Notes: generated from the sequence alone by a model not told the origin. DNA of 64,000 nt from Nitrospirales bacterium (GCA_029261355.1 JAJDBM010000005.1:1-64000); one strand, 5' to 3'. Positions 43,878 through 54,700 are shown, counted from the first letter of the stretch. Numbers and translations: made by a program.

Positions 43878-44225
43878 ATGCAATCTACGTCTCACATCCG
43901 CACCTTACGTTCAGGCGGAATCCTTCTTTCTTCCTTGTACGTCTTTCTATTGGGGGCTGCCTCCTTTTGCATGTTTGCCCATGCCAGCCCTAAGCATGGC
44001 GAAGAACAACATGCACAACATCAGGCCAACCACTCAACTCTCTGCATATGGGCTTGCCAAATCGCAGCTGACACTTCAGCAAGCCAGGTCACAATCCAGC
44101 CTACGATCAAGCCAATACTCATCGTCTCGTCTTCTGTCCTTACTTCCTGGACAATCACGCGTGAATATGTCCTCAGCACTACCCGATCACGCGCTCCACC
44201 TCAGGTCCTCCACACCATCTCATAA
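43878..44225 (+). CDS. Small secreted His/Cys-rich protein (DUF2946-like)
   Basis: A 115-residue protein with an N-terminal hydrophobic segment (residues about 14-34, SGGILLSSLYVFLLGAASFC). It then has an HxxEEQHAQHQANHST segment and the Cys pair CIWAC, then a second hydrophobic stretch and RAPPQV near the end. It resembles the 45053-45382 protein (WCDWMC and SRGPP). Both remind me of DUF2946 proteins, which have a His/Cys region and a terminal RAPP motif and often sit near copper or TonB genes. This is recognition by pattern only. It follows exbD by 20 nt and is likely in the same operon. Confidence 0.5.
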   Translation: MQSTSHIRTLRSGGILLSSLYVFLLGAASFCMFAHASPKHGEEQHAQHQANHSTLCIWACQIAADTSASQVTIQPTIKPILIVSSSVLTSWTITREYVLSTTRSRAPPQVLHTIS

Positions 44226-44435: not shown

Positions 44436-44642
44436 ATGGATAAGCAATTGTTACGGGTTGGAGAGGCCGCACAGGCATTAAACGTTAGCCGTTGGACGAT
44501 TTACCGTTGGGTCGAAGAAGGCAGACTGCAAGCCACAAAAATTGGCAAAGGCAGCCTTCGAATTTTCCGTGATTCGGTCAATGCACTCGTTGAAGACAAC
44601 CGAAAAGATCATTGGGAATTGACGACGGTACAGAGTGCCTAA
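44436..44642 (+). CDS. Small HTH (excisionase-type) DNA-binding protein
   Basis: A 68-residue protein starting at 44436, with AGGAG 9 nt upstream. LLRVGEAAQALNVSRWTIYR with WVEEGRLQATKIGK is the HTH_17 excisionase/MerR-type winged-helix pattern. It probably binds DNA as a small regulator. Without an integrase nearby it is unlikely to be a phage excisionase and may regulate neighbouring genes. It is followed by copy A of the double-hairpin element. Confidence 0.8.
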   Translation: MDKQLLRVGEAAQALNVSRWTIYRWVEEGRLQATKIGKGSLRIFRDSVNALVEDNRKDHWELTTVQSA

Positions 44643-44726
44643 TCGCGACAGTGGGTGTGCACAACCATCGAGAGATATCGCACACACCACATGGCCTCTG
44701 AAAAACTGACAAGACTTCTTTGAACA

Positions 44727-44810
44727 TCCAAGGTAGGCTATTCCTCCTGGCCTTGGATTTTTTAGGGTGAAGGCATTTGGAATTGCAACCTCCTTGGCCT
44801 TCACCCTAAA
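44727..44810 (+). ncRNA. Double-hairpin RNA element, copy A
   Basis: Hairpin 1: TCCAAGG (44727-44733) with CCTTGGA (44751-44757), and a C-rich loop containing CCTCC. Hairpin 2: TTTAGGGTGAAGGC (44761-44774) with GCCTTCACCCTAAA (44797-44810), a perfect 14-bp stem. The 22-nt loop at 44775-44796 contains TTTGGA and GCAACCTCCTT. Copies B and C share the loop nearly unchanged while stem pairs covary (see findings). It lies 85 nt after the HTH gene and 242 nt before the 45053 gene. Whether it is a trans-acting RNA, a 5'-UTR element or a mobile repeat is unknown. Confidence 0.6.
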
Positions 44811-44946
44811 CCTTTCTCATTTAAGAATTTTTTGATGGCATGAATCCTCAGCCTACCCCGCAACACGAGTTCCGGCACTCAGAAGCCATCACCTCTCATT
44901 TTCACCTTCGAAGGAATTCAAGAGACTTTCATGACGCTCATACGAA

Positions 44947-44987
44947 TGGCACGTAACTGTTGCATGTCTACGCATGAATCAGTAGAC
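44947..44987 (+). promoter_or_regulatory. Upstream motif of the 45053 gene (TGGCA...TTGCAT...GTAGAC)
   Basis: TGGCA (44947) and GTTGCAT (44959-44965) are followed by AGTAGAC (44981-44987). Inside, GTCTAC and GTAGAC can pair as a small hairpin. The 29-nt block starting at GTTGCAT has the same ends and the same length as one upstream of the cytochrome P460 gene (46285-46313). Here the TGGCA-TTGC spacing is two bases too long for a sigma-54 promoter. Confidence 0.35.
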
Positions 44988-45052
44988 CAACAGAGTCAAT
45001 TTCGGTAAGGTTAATTATTAGGAAAATACTAAGTTCTTACAGGCTCAAACAC

Positions 45053-45382
45053 ATGCTGCCCCTAATACATCACAGACGAAATCACATCAGAACGAAGGCG
45101 CTAGCAATTGCCATCGGTTTGTGTTTTCTTTTTGTCGGGACCGCACTCACCAGCACCATCACCCATCATGCCTTAGCTGACCATCATTCCCAACAAACCC
45201 ATGCGCAATCATGGTGCGACTGGATGTGTAAAGCCGGTCAAGCCATTCAAACGCCAGAAATCTTCATCGAACAGACCAGCCATCACGTCACGCCTCTGCA
45301 CCTTACGCTCGACCAACGCTCACCCTCTATCGTTTACCTATCGACCTACTCACGAGGGCCACCCGGGTCTCTCGTGTCATAA
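45053..45382 (+). CDS. Small secreted His/Cys-rich protein, paralogue of 43878
   Basis: A 109-residue protein with an N-terminal signal or membrane segment (about residues 15-35, ALAIAIGLCFLFVGTALTST). It is followed by HHALADHHSQQTHAQSWC and on to WCDWMC, then a region ending SRGPPGSLV. Layout matches the 43878-44225 protein: His-rich segment, Cys pair with Trp, hydrophobic stretch, and terminal RxPP. His and Cys residues suggest metal binding in the periplasm. Similarity to DUF2946 is by recollection. Copy A of the hairpin element lies upstream. Confidence 0.55.
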   Translation: MLPLIHHRRNHIRTKALAIAIGLCFLFVGTALTSTITHHALADHHSQQTHAQSWCDWMCKAGQAIQTPEIFIEQTSHHVTPLHLTLDQRSPSIVYLSTYSRGPPGSLVS

Positions 45383-45504
45383 CTTCTTGACCAAAAAAAT
45401 TCTCCGTTCCTAGCAACTACTGTCCATTTGACTTCCTGGTCAGGTGGTTGCGATTCAAACTATGCCCTCTGGCCTTGGTTTGCTGACAAAGGAGTAGACG
45501 AATC

Positions 45505-46254
45505 ATGTTGATCACTTCTCACGATAGTGTACGCATGCCGTGCATCATAGCCTTGCTGACGATGAGTCTTGGATTACTTCCTCTGGTGGCAGTACCCGTC
45601 CATGCCGACCACATCCTCACGTTACATCTTGCGGCCAAGCCATTTAGCCCAACCATGTGCAAAGGATATGGACCTCGCGCATCCATCCGCATCCTCATTG
45701 CCAACCATCGTGACCTCGTACTGAAAAGAATCTCGGGGCAACAAATCCCACGTAATGCAGATGAAGCCAGGCAAAAAACCTATGTGCATTACATCACCAT
45801 GGCAGACCTCACCAACAACAAAGTCACACAAGGCGCCATAGCGTTTGACTCACGACACAATGTTATTTTTGATGAATCTCATCCAGGTGGCGTATCACGC
45901 CCAACATTTGTCTCTCGACAGGCCTCGAGCATTCGCCCCCTGGTGAACCAAGCCCTTAATACGTTCTTACATATCCATCAGATTCTGAACGCAGCCATTG
46001 ATACATGCCGGCCCTATCCCACCAAAGTCGCCTATGAAACGGATGATGAAGTCCTACGAATCGAGACAGGAAAACACACATACCTCCATCTCGTACAACG
46101 GCATAATCAACAGCCTAGACCTGAGGCATTCAGTATTCGACATGAGGCGGGAAACTTAAAAGGATTCGTGGACCCCGATGCTGGAAAGCACTCAAATATG
46201 AGTTATCACGCAATGAATCCACTCAATTTTTATGTACCGACCTTCGCCCCATGA
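45505..46254 (+). CDS. Hypothetical secreted protein
   Basis: A 249-residue protein with an AAAGGAG ribosome site (45488-45494) and a probable signal peptide ending near VPVHA at residues 31-32. The mature part has two Cys residues and many His, with no known domain. It shares no clear family with the neighbours but is expressed in the same direction between metal-related genes. It may bind a ligand or metal. Nothing more can be said from sequence. Confidence 0.5.
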   Translation: MLITSHDSVRMPCIIALLTMSLGLLPLVAVPVHADHILTLHLAAKPFSPTMCKGYGPRASIRILIANHRDLVLKRISGQQIPRNADEARQKTYVHYITMADLTNNKVTQGAIAFDSRHNVIFDESHPGGVSRPTFVSRQASSIRPLVNQALNTFLHIHQILNAAIDTCRPYPTKVAYETDDEVLRIETGKHTYLHLVQRHNQQPRPEAFSIRHEAGNLKGFVDPDAGKHSNMSYHAMNPLNFYVPTFAP

Positions 46255-46274
46255 TCAGATGTTTCAAGGAAAAG

Positions 46275-46313
46275 ATGGCAATACCGTTGCATACGCATGT
46301 ATACGTAAGTAGA
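46275..46313 (+). promoter_or_regulatory. Candidate sigma-54 promoter upstream of the cytochrome P460 gene
   Basis: TGGCAATACCGTTGCA (46275-46290) has the GG and GC pairs 10 nt apart, which matches the -24/-12 sigma-54 consensus TGGCAC-N5-TTGCA well. Continuing, GTTGCAT to AGTAGAC (46285-46313) repeats the 29-nt block seen at 44959-44987. The gene starts 146 nt downstream. The match is on one site only and is unconfirmed. Confidence 0.4.
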
Positions 46314-46435
46314 CAGAAAATGAAAACTCCTCGTATCTTGAAATAGAAAGACAGTACGCTGAGGGACAGTAGAATTTTGTTACGCCGCCCCTCGGCATTC
46401 TCACATTATTTTACTATGTAAGGAGGTCGTAGGTT

Positions 46436-46984
46436 ATGAACAAGTTTTTTGTGTTAGGTGCCATGTTTGCCCTCATTGGCTGCGCGTCAATGTCGATGAC
46501 TCCATCGGCTCAATCTGGCGGAATGCCTAAAGATGGTGAACTCGCCTTCCCATCAGACTACACAGCATTTCCCACATTTTTAAAGGGCATCCAAAAACCC
46601 AATGCGGTTCGGGATCTCTTCATCAATAAAACAGGTGCCGAAGCCCATAAGGGAAAGCCATTTGCAAATGGATCGGTCTTAGTGATGGAAATCTACAAGG
46701 CGAAAAAAAATCCTGCTGGCGAATTCACAAAAGATAGCCACGGCCATCTCACCAAAGATGGATTGGCAAAAGTCTACGTCATGCAAAAAGGCAAGGGATG
46801 GGGCGCGAATGCTCCAAAAGGGTTACAAAACGGAGATTGGATCTACTCAGCATTCAAACCCAATGGGGATCGTCTCGATGTTGAGTATGCCAAATGTCGA
46901 ACCTGTCATTTACCTTTGGGAGATGCTCAGGACTACGTCCAACGATATGATGAATACTTCGACACACGCGAACATTCACATTAA
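46436..46984 (+). CDS. Cytochrome P460-family c-type heme lipoprotein
   Basis: A 182-residue protein with a very strong ribosome site (AAGGAGG, 9 nt upstream). It begins MNKFFVLGAMFALIGCASMS, with lipobox ALIGC. FPSDYTAFPTFLKGIQKPNA is the P460 family start. NGSVLVMEIYKAKKN and the terminal KCRTCHLPLGDAQDYV, with heme-c motif CRTCH, complete the fold. P460 proteins are small mono-heme cytochromes able to oxidise hydroxylamine or handle NO. Whether the heme-Lys crosslink forms cannot be judged. It is followed by copy B of the hairpin element. Confidence 0.85.
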   Translation: MNKFFVLGAMFALIGCASMSMTPSAQSGGMPKDGELAFPSDYTAFPTFLKGIQKPNAVRDLFINKTGAEAHKGKPFANGSVLVMEIYKAKKNPAGEFTKDSHGHLTKDGLAKVYVMQKGKGWGANAPKGLQNGDWIYSAFKPNGDRLDVEYAKCRTCHLPLGDAQDYVQRYDEYFDTREHSH

Positions 46985-47038
46985 ATTGAAAGTTTTCGCA
47001 ATACCTCGCTCGTGATTCGCGCAAGGGAGATTAGACAT

Positions 47039-47121
47039 TCCAAGGTAGGCTCTTCCTCCTGACCTTGGACATACCAGGGTGAAGGTGTTTGGACTTGCAA
47101 CCTCCTTAGCCTTCACCCTGG
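47039..47121 (+). ncRNA. Double-hairpin RNA element, copy B
   Basis: Hairpin 1: TCCAAGG (47039-47045) with CCTTGGA (47063-47069). Hairpin 2: CCAGGGTGAAGG (47074-47085) with CCTTCACCCTGG (47110-47121), extended by a wobble pair at the top. The loop (47087-47108) again has TTTGGA and GCAACCTCCTT. Two base pairs at the stem foot changed from T-A in copy A to C-G here. It lies 55 nt after the P460 gene and 50 nt before the small gene at 47171. Confidence 0.6.
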
Positions 47122-47170
47122 CCTCTTCTCAGGAGCCGCAAGTTATTTACTTAGGCAAGGGAGGCATAAG

Positions 47171-47380
47171 ATGAATAACCAACATGCCAACTTTCAACAA
47201 CTGCTGATCCATCAAATTAAAATCCGTGACCTCCAGGGACGATGGCGCAGAATTTCAAGTTTGAATGAAATCGAAATTGAACAACTGTGGAACGAAACCA
47301 ACAACGAAATAGGTGAATGGGAAAACCATGATCAGCTAACAAATAGTCATTATTCAAACTCACAGACGAGACGTCATTAG
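47171..47380 (+). CDS. Small hydrophilic hypothetical protein
   Basis: A 69-residue protein rich in Asn, Gln and Glu (LIHQIKIRDLQGRWRRISSL, NEIEIEQLWNETNNEIGEWE) with a good ribosome site (AAGGGAGG at 47157-47164, 7 nt before ATG). No domain is known. It begins 50 nt after copy B of the hairpin element, which could influence its translation. The helix-rich profile suggests a small binding protein. Confidence 0.5.
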   Translation: MNNQHANFQQLLIHQIKIRDLQGRWRRISSLNEIEIEQLWNETNNEIGEWENHDQLTNSHYSNSQTRRH

Positions 47381-47835
47381 AAGCAGAGTCGTTGGAGCCA
47401 TAGACAGCAATCATGTTCCTAGTACTCCAGAACATTTACTCAGAAGAGAAGTTCGATAGAACTATTCTGTCGGATGGTAGATTGTGCCCAACGTTGAATG
47501 ATCAATGGCTAGAGTTTATGTCGATTCACTCAATACGACTGAGAACTCAGCTTATCTCATTATCAACCTCAAGGTCGGCTACACCGACCACGACAGCCTG
47601 TGATTCTTTGCCAAAGGAAAAACTTAACGAATCAAACTTATGCTGGGTCAGTGGTCGTCACCGACTCCCTTGGGCGATATTTCAATTCAGGACAAGGGAT
47701 CAGTAGGTATGGAAGGGTTGAATGGAAATTTAATTAATCACATTTGGTAGTATGGATTGGCATCTATCCGTAGACCAAAAAACTTCATTTATCTATAGTG
47801 TAAACTTGTAGTCTCTGCTACGACAGGTGCATTGT
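47381..47835. other. AT-rich stretch without a convincing gene
   Basis: About 455 nt before copy C. The frame at 47413-47706 lacks a ribosome site and has mixed composition, so it is not called. Repetitive or decayed sequence is possible. No terminator was recognised. Confidence 0.35.
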
Positions 47836-47920
47836 TCCAAGGAAGGACCGGCCTCCTACTCCTTGGAGATTCCCCGAGTGAAGGTATTTGGACTTGCAAC
47901 CTCCTTGGCCTTCACTCGGG
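47836..47920 (+). ncRNA. Double-hairpin RNA element, copy C
   Basis: Hairpin 1: TCCAAGG (47836-47842) with CCTTGGA (47861-47867). Hairpin 2: CCCGAGTGAAGG (47873-47884) with CCTTCACTCGGG (47909-47920). The loop (47886-47907) is TTTGGA...TTGCAACCTCCTTG as in copies A and B. Two further stem pairs differ from A and B in a compensatory way (A-T to C-G, G-C to A-T). It ends 74 nt before the chosen start of the beta-propeller gene at 47995. Confidence 0.6.
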
Positions 47921-49290: not shown

Positions 49291-49542
49291 CAGTGAGTTC
49301 GCAAACGGCAAACCATGAAGGAATCGGCCCAATATCATCAATCTGGCTGGTGAAAATAGGTCTCCGCCGATCCAGGACAGTCCCTTCAAGGCACATTAAT
49401 CCCTTGGGTAAAGCACGCATCGAGAAGTTTCTTAACTCAATTGAAGTTATCCCGTCATATCTATTCAATAATGTTGTAAGCATTGGCAATAGGTGCAAGC
49501 ATTGGTGGTGTCTCATCTAAAAAGATTGCTATATATCCATGC

Positions 49543-50064
49543 ATGGTTTTTTCCTTAAACATCGAAGAACTGTTCCATTCCTACCACCGTTCACTACTGA
49601 CCTACCTCCGTGGTCTTGTGAAGTCTCCACACTTCGCAGAAGAAATTGCTCAAGACACCTATCTGCGACTTCACAACCACATTCCTCCGACCACAACAGT
49701 CAAACATCCTCGAGCCTACCTCTTTCGTACAGCCCATAATCTCGCCATGGATCAACTGACAAAGCAGTCGACAGAATGGAAATATCGAACACATCATGAC
49801 ATTCCCATTGAGACCCGCAGTCCAGGGCCCTCACCTGAAAGCATCACGGAATCTCGAGAACGCTTGCAATTGATCGCGAATGCCATAAACGAACTCCCTG
49901 CACCATGCCGCCAAGCCTTTATCCTAAATAAAATTCACCACATGCCCCATGCGGAAATTGCCCTACATTTGCAAGTGTCAAAAAGTATGATCGAAAAACA
50001 TCTCATGCGAGCGCTTGCCCATTGTCGAGATCGAGTCCACGACCAAAAGGCCACATCATCCTGA
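49543..50064 (+). CDS. ECF-type RNA polymerase sigma factor (FecI-like)
   Basis: A 173-residue sigma-70-family ECF sigma factor. Region 2 is about residues 5-70 (FHSYHRSLLTYLRGLVKSPH, FAEEIAQDTYLRLHNHIPPT). Region 4 is at the end (CRQAFILNKIHHMPHAEIAL with HLQVSKSMIEKHL). The following FecR (50324) on the same strand makes a FecI-FecR pair, so it probably responds to outer-membrane signals, but no receptor gene is adjacent. Start chosen at 49543. An upstream in-frame start at 49483 would add residues that do not fit the family. Confidence 0.85.
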   Translation: MVFSLNIEELFHSYHRSLLTYLRGLVKSPHFAEEIAQDTYLRLHNHIPPTTTVKHPRAYLFRTAHNLAMDQLTKQSTEWKYRTHHDIPIETRSPGPSPESITESRERLQLIANAINELPAPCRQAFILNKIHHMPHAEIALHLQVSKSMIEKHLMRALAHCRDRVHDQKATSS

Positions 50065-50323
50065 CTCTACTTGTCCAGCACTCCTCTCTCACACTCTTCG
50101 CCAAGTTTCATCTCAGCGTCAAACTTGAAAAAATGTGGTTATCCAATGCTCAACCCGTCTAAGAAGGAAACACCTGTACACAAATGGGGATTCCCCTTTC
50201 ATGGACAGATACACTATCCTTGGTGACAACAATCATTACTGACAACAAAATTGGCACATTCATCTCGGACACAAGACTGACTCGCGCCCATCGACTCATC
50301 AACGCAACGGATCAATATTTCAC

Positions 50324-51325
50324 GTGAATCAAGATAATCCCAAACACTCACCTGACCCTGAACAAGCTGCATTAAAGTGGCTCATTCGTTTGACCTCTGG
50401 AGAGACGACCACTCAAGAAAAGCAGGATTTTGACGCCTGGCTTCACACAAATCCGGCTCATCGACAGGCCTTTGAGAACATCCAGAGGCTGTGGGATGAC
50501 ACCACACGACTGAACTATAACCCCAAGACCAGTCACGTCAACGTCCCAGACCAGCCAAAGATTATCCAGAAAACACGCTCTCGGAAACCACGAGGGACCT
50601 GGTCAAAACCTGTCCTAGTTGGAATCGCCACCATGGCGGCGTGCCTTGTTCTCGTATGGTGGTCCGGGTGGCATTGGTGGATGATCAGCGATTACACCAC
50701 AAGCGAACATCGACAAACGGTCAGTCTCTCCGATGGCCTCCAAATTACTCTTGATGCGCAAACCGCTTTAGATATCAACAGCTTTCCTGGGAAAACCCTT
50801 GTGACATTACGGGCAGGTGCAGCATGGTTCAAGGTATTCGCCCAACCTGAAGGACATGTCGTACGCGTACTCACCGACCAGATATCGGTAACCTCCCTTG
50901 GAACAGAGTTTCTCGTCGAACAGCATTCTTCGTATCAATACGTCGCGGTGACGGAACATGCCGTCGAACTGACGTCGCGAGCGTCTCCCTCATTGAGTAC
51001 TCAGCTTCAGGAAGGATATGGCATCTCCCTTGATGCCGCATCCACCCTACCCTGGGAAAAAACAGTCGTTGACCCTGCCATCATCGGGGCCTGGCGAAAT
51101 GGGCGACTGATCTTCGAAAATGCACCATTACAACATGTTATCCAGCGCCTCGATGATTACTATCCTGGCCTTCTGCTGATCACCGACAACACCCTGTTAC
51201 ATCAAAAGGTAAGCGGCGTCTTTGATATTGATCATCCTGAACGTGCGTTAGCCTCTCTGCAACTCGCGTTTCCTCTTACCATTCGACGAGTATCCACTTA
51301 TTTGGTATTGATCTCCCAAGCATAG
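50324..51325 (+). CDS. FecR-family inner-membrane signal transducer
   Basis: A 333-residue protein, GTG start. Residues 10-55 form a DUF4880 N-terminal segment (AALKWLIRLTSGETTTQEKQ, FDAWLHTNPAHRQAFENIQR). Residues about 94-116 are a membrane helix (LVGIATMAACLVLVWWSGWH). The FecR domain (HRQTVSLSDGLQITLDAQTA, ALDINSFPG) and a C-terminal STN-like segment (LLLITDNTLLHQKVSGVF) follow. It regulates the partner sigma factor. It lies 259 nt after the ECF gene and 446 nt before the RND pump. Confidence 0.85.
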   Translation: MNQDNPKHSPDPEQAALKWLIRLTSGETTTQEKQDFDAWLHTNPAHRQAFENIQRLWDDTTRLNYNPKTSHVNVPDQPKIIQKTRSRKPRGTWSKPVLVGIATMAACLVLVWWSGWHWWMISDYTTSEHRQTVSLSDGLQITLDAQTALDINSFPGKTLVTLRAGAAWFKVFAQPEGHVVRVLTDQISVTSLGTEFLVEQHSSYQYVAVTEHAVELTSRASPSLSTQLQEGYGISLDAASTLPWEKTVVDPAIIGAWRNGRLIFENAPLQHVIQRLDDYYPGLLLITDNTLLHQKVSGVFDIDHPERALASLQLAFPLTIRRVSTYLVLISQA

Positions 51326-51771: not shown

Positions 51772-54700
51772 ATGAACGTCATAGCCTGGTTCACAAAGAA
51801 TCCTGTTGCCGCCAATATCCTCATGGGACTCATTCTGCTATCAGGATTCGTCGGCCTCTCTTCAGTTGAAAAAGAAGTTTTTCCGCGTTTCAACCCGCAA
51901 CGAATCGACATCAAAGCCTACTACCCTGGAGCCACACCGGAAGAAATTGCCCAGCGAGTGTGCCTCCCGATTGAGGAAGCCATCCACGACTTAAAAGGCA
52001 TCCAGCGTCTCAATACACAAGCCGGGCAGACGTGGCGGCAAGAAGATGCCTGTTCGATTCAAGTGCAGGTGGCCAACAATCTAGACTTGCAGCCGCTCAT
52101 TGGGGCCATTCACGCTCGCATACAGAACATCCCCCGTCTTCCCAGAGGCATCGACCGCATTGACGTGAAGGAAGGAAGGACGCGGGCCAATGACGGAGTC
52201 ATCTGGGTCGCGCTCTACGGCCAGGCCGATCGCCTTGACCTCAGAAAGTTAGGAGAAGAAATTGAGGCCGACCTCTCCCGTATTACTGGCGTAAAAGACG
52301 TGAACAACTACGGACGCGTCCCCTATGAACTCGCGATCGAAATTCCCATGGAACATCTTCGTCGTTCCAAACTCACACTCAAAGAGGTCGCCCATACGAT
52401 TCGCCAAAATTCACTTGATCTTCCAGGAGGTCGAATAAAAGCCGAGACTGGCGATATCGTGCTGCGGACACGCGGCCAAGCCTTAGATGTCAACACATTT
52501 GGCGAACAGACCCTCTTCATGGGACCGGACGGTTCCCGCGTGCATCTCCGAGATATCGCGAGCATTCGCGATGGTCTGGCTGAGCGGGACTTTGCCTGGC
52601 ATCACAATGGCTTGCCCTGCCAAGGGTGGGAGATGCACGCCACAGACAACGAAGTCGCGGTGGCCCGTCGCATCAAAGCCTATGTGGAGAATAGAGCCCC
52701 CCAACTCCCTGAGGGCTTGCAACTCATTACTTGGTACGATGATTCTCAAGGGTTCGACGAGCGCGTCAGGACTCTATTGGAAAACGGTCTCATCGGGTTT
52801 ATCCTGATTTTCTTGCTCCTGACAGTTTTCCTGAACCGCCATCTGGCTTTCTGGGTGGCCATAGGCGTCATCACCGCCTTAATGGGAGCGCTGGGAAGCA
52901 TGTGGCTCCTCGGCATCTCCCTCAACATGCTCAGCCTCTTTGGATTTGTGCTGGCCTTGGGAATCTTAGTGGATGACACCATCATTGTCAGCGAGAGCAT
53001 CAACCGACATCAGCAAGCCACGGCTGCCACATTCACAGAAACCTCATCCTCAGGACAGATCCAAGCACGCATACATGCCGCAACAATCCGAGGACTGAGC
53101 GAGGTCACCAAACCAGTCATCCTGGCGATCATTACGACGACAATGGCCTTTCTACCTGGCCTGTTCCTCACCGGTTGGGCAGACTCACTGCTCGGTCCCA
53201 TTTGTAGCGTCGTGGTCTTAGCTTTGGGGTTTTCACTCGTTGAGGCCCTCTGTATTCTGCCTGCCCACCTCACGCTTTCCGTACAAGAATCTCACCGTTG
53301 GGTTGAGAAAATTCGCCAACGGGCGACCCGTGGGCTAGACAGGCTCATCCATCAAGGATATCTCCCTCTTTTGGATGGATCCTTTCGCCAACCTTTCCTT
53401 TTATTGGCTGGCTGCACGACGACGATCGTGATCACCGTGGCATTGGTCTTGGGAGGACATGTTCGCCTCGCTATTCAAGCCGATGTGCCCAAGGATACAA
53501 TCGCCGTGTTTCTAAACGTTCCTCCCGGCACTCCATTTACAACCACAAAAGCTCTCTCTGGCAAGGTTGAACAGGCGTATAGCCAATTGCGCCAATCACT
53601 TGAAACTCAACAAGCACAAGGGACAGCAAGCCCGATCTCTGGAATCGAGAGCATGATTTTTGAAGATTGGGCGGGATTCTGGGTTGAACTGTCCCCCGGT
53701 GCCCGACAGCGATTTTCCGTCGATTCCCTCGCTCGGGAATGGAGAGAAAATATCGGCCCTATTGGCAAATCCACACTCGACTTTCAATATCGACAAGGCG
53801 ACACCTACCACGACCTGGAATGGCGTGTCAGCGGCACCAATGCCGAAACCGTCACGGATGCCGTGGATACCATGATCAGCCATCTCTCCAACTTGCCTGG
53901 AGTGTTTGATGCAAAACACTCACTCATTCAAGGCAAACCGCAACTCAGCCTGAAGCTTCGACCGGAAGCCGAACGACTGGGCCTGCGACTTGAAGATGTG
54001 GCCGAGCAAGTGCGTCAAGCCTATCTGGGAGAAGAGGTTCAGCGATTCCATCGACGGCGGGAACAGGTCAAAGTTGTCGTTCGCCTGCCTCTGGACGAAC
54101 GACGCCAACTCAATGATTTCAAGCAGTTACCGATTCTCCTCCCAACGGGGGACCAGGCTCCATTGGAAACGCTGGCCACATGGCAGTGGCTCCCTCACGT
54201 TGAGGCCATCACTCGTGAGGATCGCCAAGAGTTAATCTGGGTCCGTGCTCGCTTGAATCCTGAACTGGGGGATGCGAATGCCATTTATTCATCCATGCAA
54301 TCGGGTTTGATCGACGAGCTCAAACGAGGTGACCCCGGACTGCGTATTACGGTCGGACATGCACGACAACAACAAGAAACAGCCTTTCAAATGTTGGGAC
54401 AGAATACGCTCGTTGCCATGGTGTTGATCTATGCACTCCTCGCCGTCTCATTCCGTTCGTATCGCTACCCGTTGCTCTTTCTCGTTGCCATCCCTCTTGC
54501 GTGGGTCAGTGGGGTGCTCGCGCATTATGTCTTAGACTTATCACTCTCAATGGAATCGCTCGTGGGAATGATCGGTGCCAGCGGGGTCGTCGTGAACGAT
54601 AGCCTCGTCTTGCTGCATGATGTCAAACGGCGTCAGCGCGAGCAGGTGAACCTCACAATCCAGAAGTCCATTCGCCAGGCCTGTACCGTTCGGTTTCGCC

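Follow-up and report, generated by a model that had tools for sequence, protein, structure and literature searches.

Candidate small RNAs with anti-Shine-Dalgarno loops in a conserved Nitrospirales gene cluster, with a possible role in copper sparing

Here we examine a repeated double-hairpin element in a 64,000-nucleotide (nt) stretch of DNA, called the window, from the genome of a Nitrospirales bacterium, a nitrite oxidiser (GCA_029261355.1, JAJDBM010000005.1). As the initial annotation had reported, three copies of the element lie between genes on the plus strand, at 44726-44810 (copy A), 47039-47121 (copy B) and 47836-47920 (copy C). We will argue that the copies are likely to be trans-acting small RNAs (sRNAs) that block translation initiation, probably as part of a copper-sparing response.

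Here and in related genomes, copies are concentrated in one conserved cluster that contains TPR, TonB, ExbB and ExbD genes, CruR-like open reading frames (ORFs), genes for a 68-aa HTH_17 protein and a secreted 250-aa protein, cytochrome P460, the RNA, a BNR protein, a TlpA-like protein, a TonB receptor and PepSY_TM. In the window, the plus strand carries a small exported CruR-like protein with CxxxC and RAPP motifs (43878-44225), followed by the 68-aa HTH_17/excisionase-like protein (44436-44642), with copy A some 85 nt after it. A second small exported CruR-like protein (45053-45382; CDWMC and RGPP, cf. PMC9426467) precedes a 249-aa secreted protein of unknown family (45505-46254), and the cytochrome P460 gene follows (46436-46984). 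Copy B is located in the 3' region of the latter, with its hairpin 2 starting 89 nt past the stop codon; the usual distance in related loci is 85-96 nt. Beside it lies a 69-aa ORF (47171-47380; IRDxQGRWRRxSSL) without a Pfam match, which is conserved beside class I copies of the element (see below) and whose leader is found only next to some of them. Directly past the cluster there is a gene pair for an extracytoplasmic function (ECF) sigma factor and a FecR-like anti-sigma factor (49483-51325), and a resistance-nodulation-division (RND)-type pump is encoded at 51772.

The small proteins of the cluster resemble CruR of Bordetella pertussis, a copper-sensing upstream ORF that is defined by CXXC and RAPP and restricts the synthesis of a TonB-dependent transporter to low copper (PMC9426467). 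In 49 of 50 cluster proteins CXXXC is combined with a C-terminal RxPP; more precisely, R[AGS]PP lies near the C-terminus in 49/50 and C-x2/3-C is present in all, mostly as CxxxC instead of CxxC. The Pfam DUF2946 match is below the cut-off for the 43878 protein, and the 45053 protein has none. The known CruR family has been described mainly from Proteobacteria. In Nitrospirales (cluster c0, L041-L076), many CruR-like small proteins stand at the head of genes for TonB receptors or secreted proteins. Given the TonB system and the CXXXC...RxPP proteins, which come close to the hallmarks of CruR, the cluster is probably expressed under copper limitation. It is important to note that CruR is a protein-coding cis sensor, and that the CruR-like proteins here are encoded next to the RNAs and are distinct from the RNA itself.

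Each copy folds into two hairpins, as previously described. Hairpin 1 has the form TCCAAGG...CCTTGGA and hairpin 2 is longer. They occupy 44726-44758 (ATCCAAGG..CCTTGGAT) and 44761-44810 in copy A, 47039-47069 and 47074-47121 in copy B, and 47836-47867 and 47873-47920 in copy C. The folding of all three is 3.5-4.3 standard deviations better than that of shuffled sequences. When loop and stem are searched as one pattern with up to three mismatches, these three sites are the only matches in the window, and 100 shuffles give none. The compensatory changes in the stem of hairpin 2 had been given correctly: for copies A, B and C, pairs 1 and 2 are both T-A, C-G and C-G, pair 3 is A-T, A-T and C-G, and pair 5 is G-C, G-C and A-T. 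The 22-nt loop is indeed nearly invariant, and the number of variable positions, first put at only three, is three or four depending on where the loop is taken to begin and end. It contains an inner GGA/UCC helix and, overlooked at first, the anti-Shine-Dalgarno motif ACCUCCUU, which is the sequence of the 16S rRNA 3' end that binds Shine-Dalgarno sequences. CCUCC is carried by hairpin 1 as well.

A covariance model of hairpin 2 was seeded from four copies (A, B, C and one on contig 71 of the same genome) and used to survey 236 genomes of the order. At E<=1e-4 it finds the RNA in 24 genomes, all of them in the genera g1, g2 and g9, with strong copies throughout g1, g2 and most of g9, at about 45 places; one further strong copy in the own genome is on contig 5 at 73608. 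Named hosts are metagenome-assembled genomes (MAGs) of Nitrospirales, for example NPIRA01-06 and a Nitrospira sp. MAG. Over 42 copies from relatives, 95.4% of the stem cells pair, double changes occur in 6 of 16 stem pairs compared to a shuffled mean of 2.6, and the alignment scores 0.171 for covariation, compared to 0.109 for shuffled and at most 0.080 for slid alignments. Hairpin 1, on the other hand, is interchangeable, being TCCAAGG in class I, GGAGCGG in class II and GGGTAAG in class III. These further copies with compensatory stem changes bear out the initial reading of the element as a functional RNA. That it belongs to no known family also holds: Rfam scans at gathering thresholds of the window and seven related loci gave no match, and permissive scans (E up to 10) only chance snoRNA matches, none of them relevant.

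Some peripheral hits should be mentioned here. Weak R1 matches in family f3 (G072, G075, G087) look like chance, and reverse-strand R1 matches of 20-34 bits are an echo of the palindrome; both were discarded. In G097, from another family of the order, there is a GC-rich element (L076, 9030-9068) of two hairpins whose loops both contain CCTCC; lying in a matching neighbourhood, it may be a distant member. The class III copies (L005 3931-3977, L045, L068, L069) have their different hairpin 1 at a separate locus, with a PEP-CTERM protein gene just downstream of three of the four (all except L068).

We now turn to the loops. In the own genome, the best matches to the loop complement, besides the copies, are the ribosome-binding sites of two genes, one coding for the small metal-binding protein SmbP and the other for a DUF1264 protein. 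The SmbP site, CCAAGGAGGTTGCA-CATG, is complementary over 14 nt to the hairpin-2 loops of copies A (stretch TTGCAACCTCCTTGG) and C, while TTGCAACCTCCTTAG in copy B is the perfect 15-nt complement of the DUF1264 site CTAAGGAGGTTGCAATG. The protected loop that the initial annotation had singled out has thus a concrete reason, namely complementarity to the ribosome-binding sites of specific mRNAs. The SmbP match extends over 11-14 nt across g1 and g2, and the SmbP site in g9 is different (AAGGAGGTCAGGGATG). In G012, G019, G023 and G043, it is the hairpin-1 loop of class II, CATCCCTGACC(T) (as RNA CAUCCCUGACC(U)), that pairs, over 11-12 nt, with the SmbP spacer and AUG. Among the relatives, the exact motif is found at SmbP, DUF1264, a Cu/Zn superoxide dismutase (SOD)-like gene, sometimes the Cu nitrite reductase (NirK), and a few others.

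A genome-wide count of loop complements with up to two mismatches gave no excess over the reversed-pattern control; the signal lies in position and gene identity. In G001, TTGCA follows AAGGAGG at 4 of 100 sites, compared to an expectation of 0.10-0.18 (Poisson p 4e-6 to 4e-5), and SmbP, DUF1264 and the Cu/Zn SOD-like gene are among the four. Nested co-folding of RNA and target was disregarded, as it is unable to represent loop pairing while the stem is kept. As a separate observation, the loop ATTCCTCCTG in hairpin 1 of copy A (44740-44749) is complementary over 10 nt to the ribosome-binding site (CAGGAGGAAT) in front of the genome's own Cu nitrite reductase gene (G000:C47, L199).

The co-variation of loop and target, which provides the strongest evidence, was followed at the DUF1264 site in 21 genomes, over all the genes examined and with paralogues included. 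Where the hairpin-2 loop is UUGCAACCUCC (core UUGCAACC), the DUF1264 site is GGAGGUUGC in 21/21 genes, and where it is CGACCUCC (core CGACC), the site is GGAGG(U/C)C in 9/9 genes, five of them with UCG. The background ribosome-binding sites of the same loci lack this pattern: GGAGGTTGC occurs in 0/77 in the first loop group and TC in 4/20 in the second. The DUF1264 gene tree intermixes both kinds of loop, with five changes of each label. Its well supported branches provide three pairs that are independent of each other, and each of these is concordant. Complementarity to the sites of unlinked genes is thus kept through changes on both sides, which is one of the features of the functional class of trans-acting anti-Shine-Dalgarno sRNAs.

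Also the transcription signals can be considered. Class II copies share an arrangement located 108-111 nt before hairpin 2, in which three direct repeats with a spacing of 10 bp precede a -10-like sequence. A matrix built from this operator, which ends with GTAGAC about 17 nt before the -10 sequence, matches 78 sites in the loci and one in shuffled loci. Its sites precede other RNA copies and genes of the cluster, and mark a regulon across g1, g2 and g9. All three operators in the window belong to this locus and are on the same strand: one ahead of the CruR-like ORF at 45053 (44958-44986), one ahead of the cytochrome P460 gene (46285-46313), and one (GGTAGTATGGATTGGCATCTATCCGTAGA, 18.7 bits) at 47746-47774, with the second hairpin of copy C 99 nt downstream. 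The last is directly followed by a promoter-like TAGACC-17-TATAGT (47771-47799, a consensus match), from which the sRNA of copy C would start near 47806.

In 25 of 43 copies, hairpin 2 is followed on the sense strand by a run of at least five T in eight; on the opposite strand this is the case in 0/43. In many copies, hairpin 2 thus probably also serves as an intrinsic terminator, so that the initial statement that the element is not a terminator was only half right. A few copies stand alone, with the flanking genes on the opposite strand (e.g. L061 at 9318). From the terminator polarity and the operator and promoter motif, which are indirect signs of expression, and from the copies without an owner gene on their own strand, we interpret the copies as small RNAs or as the 3' termini of regulon mRNAs. 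As to what might bind the operator, BldC binds to direct repeats in a head-to-tail arrangement (PMC5859096), which makes the 68-aa HTH_17 protein at 44436 a candidate regulator. This is a guess; the protein scores 24.6 bits for the BldC subfamily, compared to the NCBIfam cut-off of 77, and the excisionase domain fits better.

On the basis of these results, the following mechanism can be proposed. Each copy would be, or would end, a regulatory RNA of ca 120-130 nt on the plus strand that terminates at hairpin 2. Copy C, like the class II copies in relatives, would have its own promoter with the three-repeat operator, while copies A and B would form the 3' end of an mRNA belonging to the same regulon. 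The stems would present loops in which ACCUCCUU is joined to a target-specific extension, and these would pair with the Shine-Dalgarno sequence, the spacer and, in some cases, also the start codon of the chosen mRNAs, thereby blocking ribosome entry. SmbP and the DUF1264 protein would be the main targets, with paralogous copies tuned to different ones. Since the TonB system and the CruR-like ORFs of the host cluster are features of a copper-starvation uptake regulon, the RNAs most likely act when copper is scarce, shutting down copper-binding proteins.

Several observations weigh against this proposal. The T-runs are weak in the window copies. The SmbP match is just 7-9 nt in G021, G033, G041, G046 and other genomes that have the RNA, and NirK had to be rejected as a family-wide target, as its sites do not follow the loop type. 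A sign test on the three concordant pairs alone cannot be significant, and the weight is therefore placed on the association being perfect, on the exact logic of the base pairing, and on SmbP as an independent case. Furthermore, G008, G013 and G015 have TTGC ribosome-binding sites, although the RNA was not found in these genomes; a search of G008 and G013 for the loop gave mRNAs and chance sites only. Either the TTGC motif can exist without the RNA, or the RNA is there too diverged for the model to find. Finally, copper limitation as the trigger and the direction of the response are deduced from neighbours and targets by homology.

The T-runs after hairpin 2, together with the placement of copies past the P460 gene or ahead of BNR and TonB receptor genes, could also mean that the element acts in cis only, as a conserved terminator or leader attenuator of the copper cluster, without targets in trans. 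We consider this unlikely, although it is the most serious of the alternatives. Downstream of some copies there is no gene on the same strand, a terminator can do without an invariant loop, and the changes in the loop follow the ribosome-binding sites of unlinked genes. The TTGC sites of the RNA-negative genera g5, g7 and g10 would, on the other hand, be accounted for if the motifs were kept for another reason, such as a different sRNA or a preference of the ribosome, with the match to the RNA being secondary. In the RNA-positive genomes, however, a different loop goes with a different site for all the genes examined, which makes this option still less probable.

The GGA of hairpin 2, kept in 42/42 copies, brings to mind a binding decoy for CsrA or a similar protein. 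It is, however, paired with UCC in the inner helix and there is just about one GGA per hairpin, and a decoy would leave the co-variation with the DUF1264 sites unexplained; we regard this as very improbable. A mobile or palindromic repeat spread within the cluster, of the repetitive extragenic palindrome (REP), miniature inverted-repeat transposable element (MITE) or attC type, would fit the several copies per locus and the partial tandem duplication ahead of some of them. This possibility, already disfavoured, can practically be dismissed, as there are about five copies per genome in one main cluster, the stems have diverged with compensation, and the loop is constrained by targets.

The trans-acting sRNAs proposed here can be compared with known systems. 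In design and probable mechanism they resemble the ar14/NfeR1-cuckoo family of alphaproteobacteria, whose variable-stem hairpins with an unpaired anti-Shine-Dalgarno motif in the loop occur in several copies per genome, have a conserved promoter motif and repress at translation initiation regions (PMC7143759). Variable stems and anti-Shine-Dalgarno loops are found here too. However, the Nitrospirales hosts belong to a different phylum, no Rfam model matches (although Rfam may not cover every cuckoo member), and the loops join ACCUCCUU to gene-specific extensions that co-vary with the targets, in connection with a copper cluster. Membership is not claimed, because neither the sequence family nor the lineage matches. 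In Rhodobacter, the related sRNAs CcsR1-4 adjoin the gene of a small protein, CcaF1 (71 aa; PMC10253847). The 69-aa ORF is likewise located beside related candidate sRNAs, but its lack of a Pfam match means that it has no DUF1127. The CcsR loops contain CUCC, and these RNAs act in stress defence and C1 metabolism and are not known for copper.

RyhB, PrrF and FsrA are metal-sparing sRNAs for iron; when this metal is in short supply, they repress the proteins that use it. The same sparing logic would apply here, with copper in place of iron. While iron-sparing RNAs are textbook knowledge, we know of no bacterial copper-sparing RNA, and no report of one was found in the literature searched. Nitrite oxidisers depend on metal-rich respiration. 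The balance tips slightly towards a set of multi-copy copper-sparing sRNAs in these organisms, in which an uptake system and target-specific translational blockers would be switched on together; as far as the literature searched shows, this would be the first such copper RNA described in bacteria. The co-evolution of RNA and target is visible at the level of base pairs from genomes alone, mostly of uncultured lineages, and the exact pairings of 14-15 nt are open to direct testing in reporter assays.

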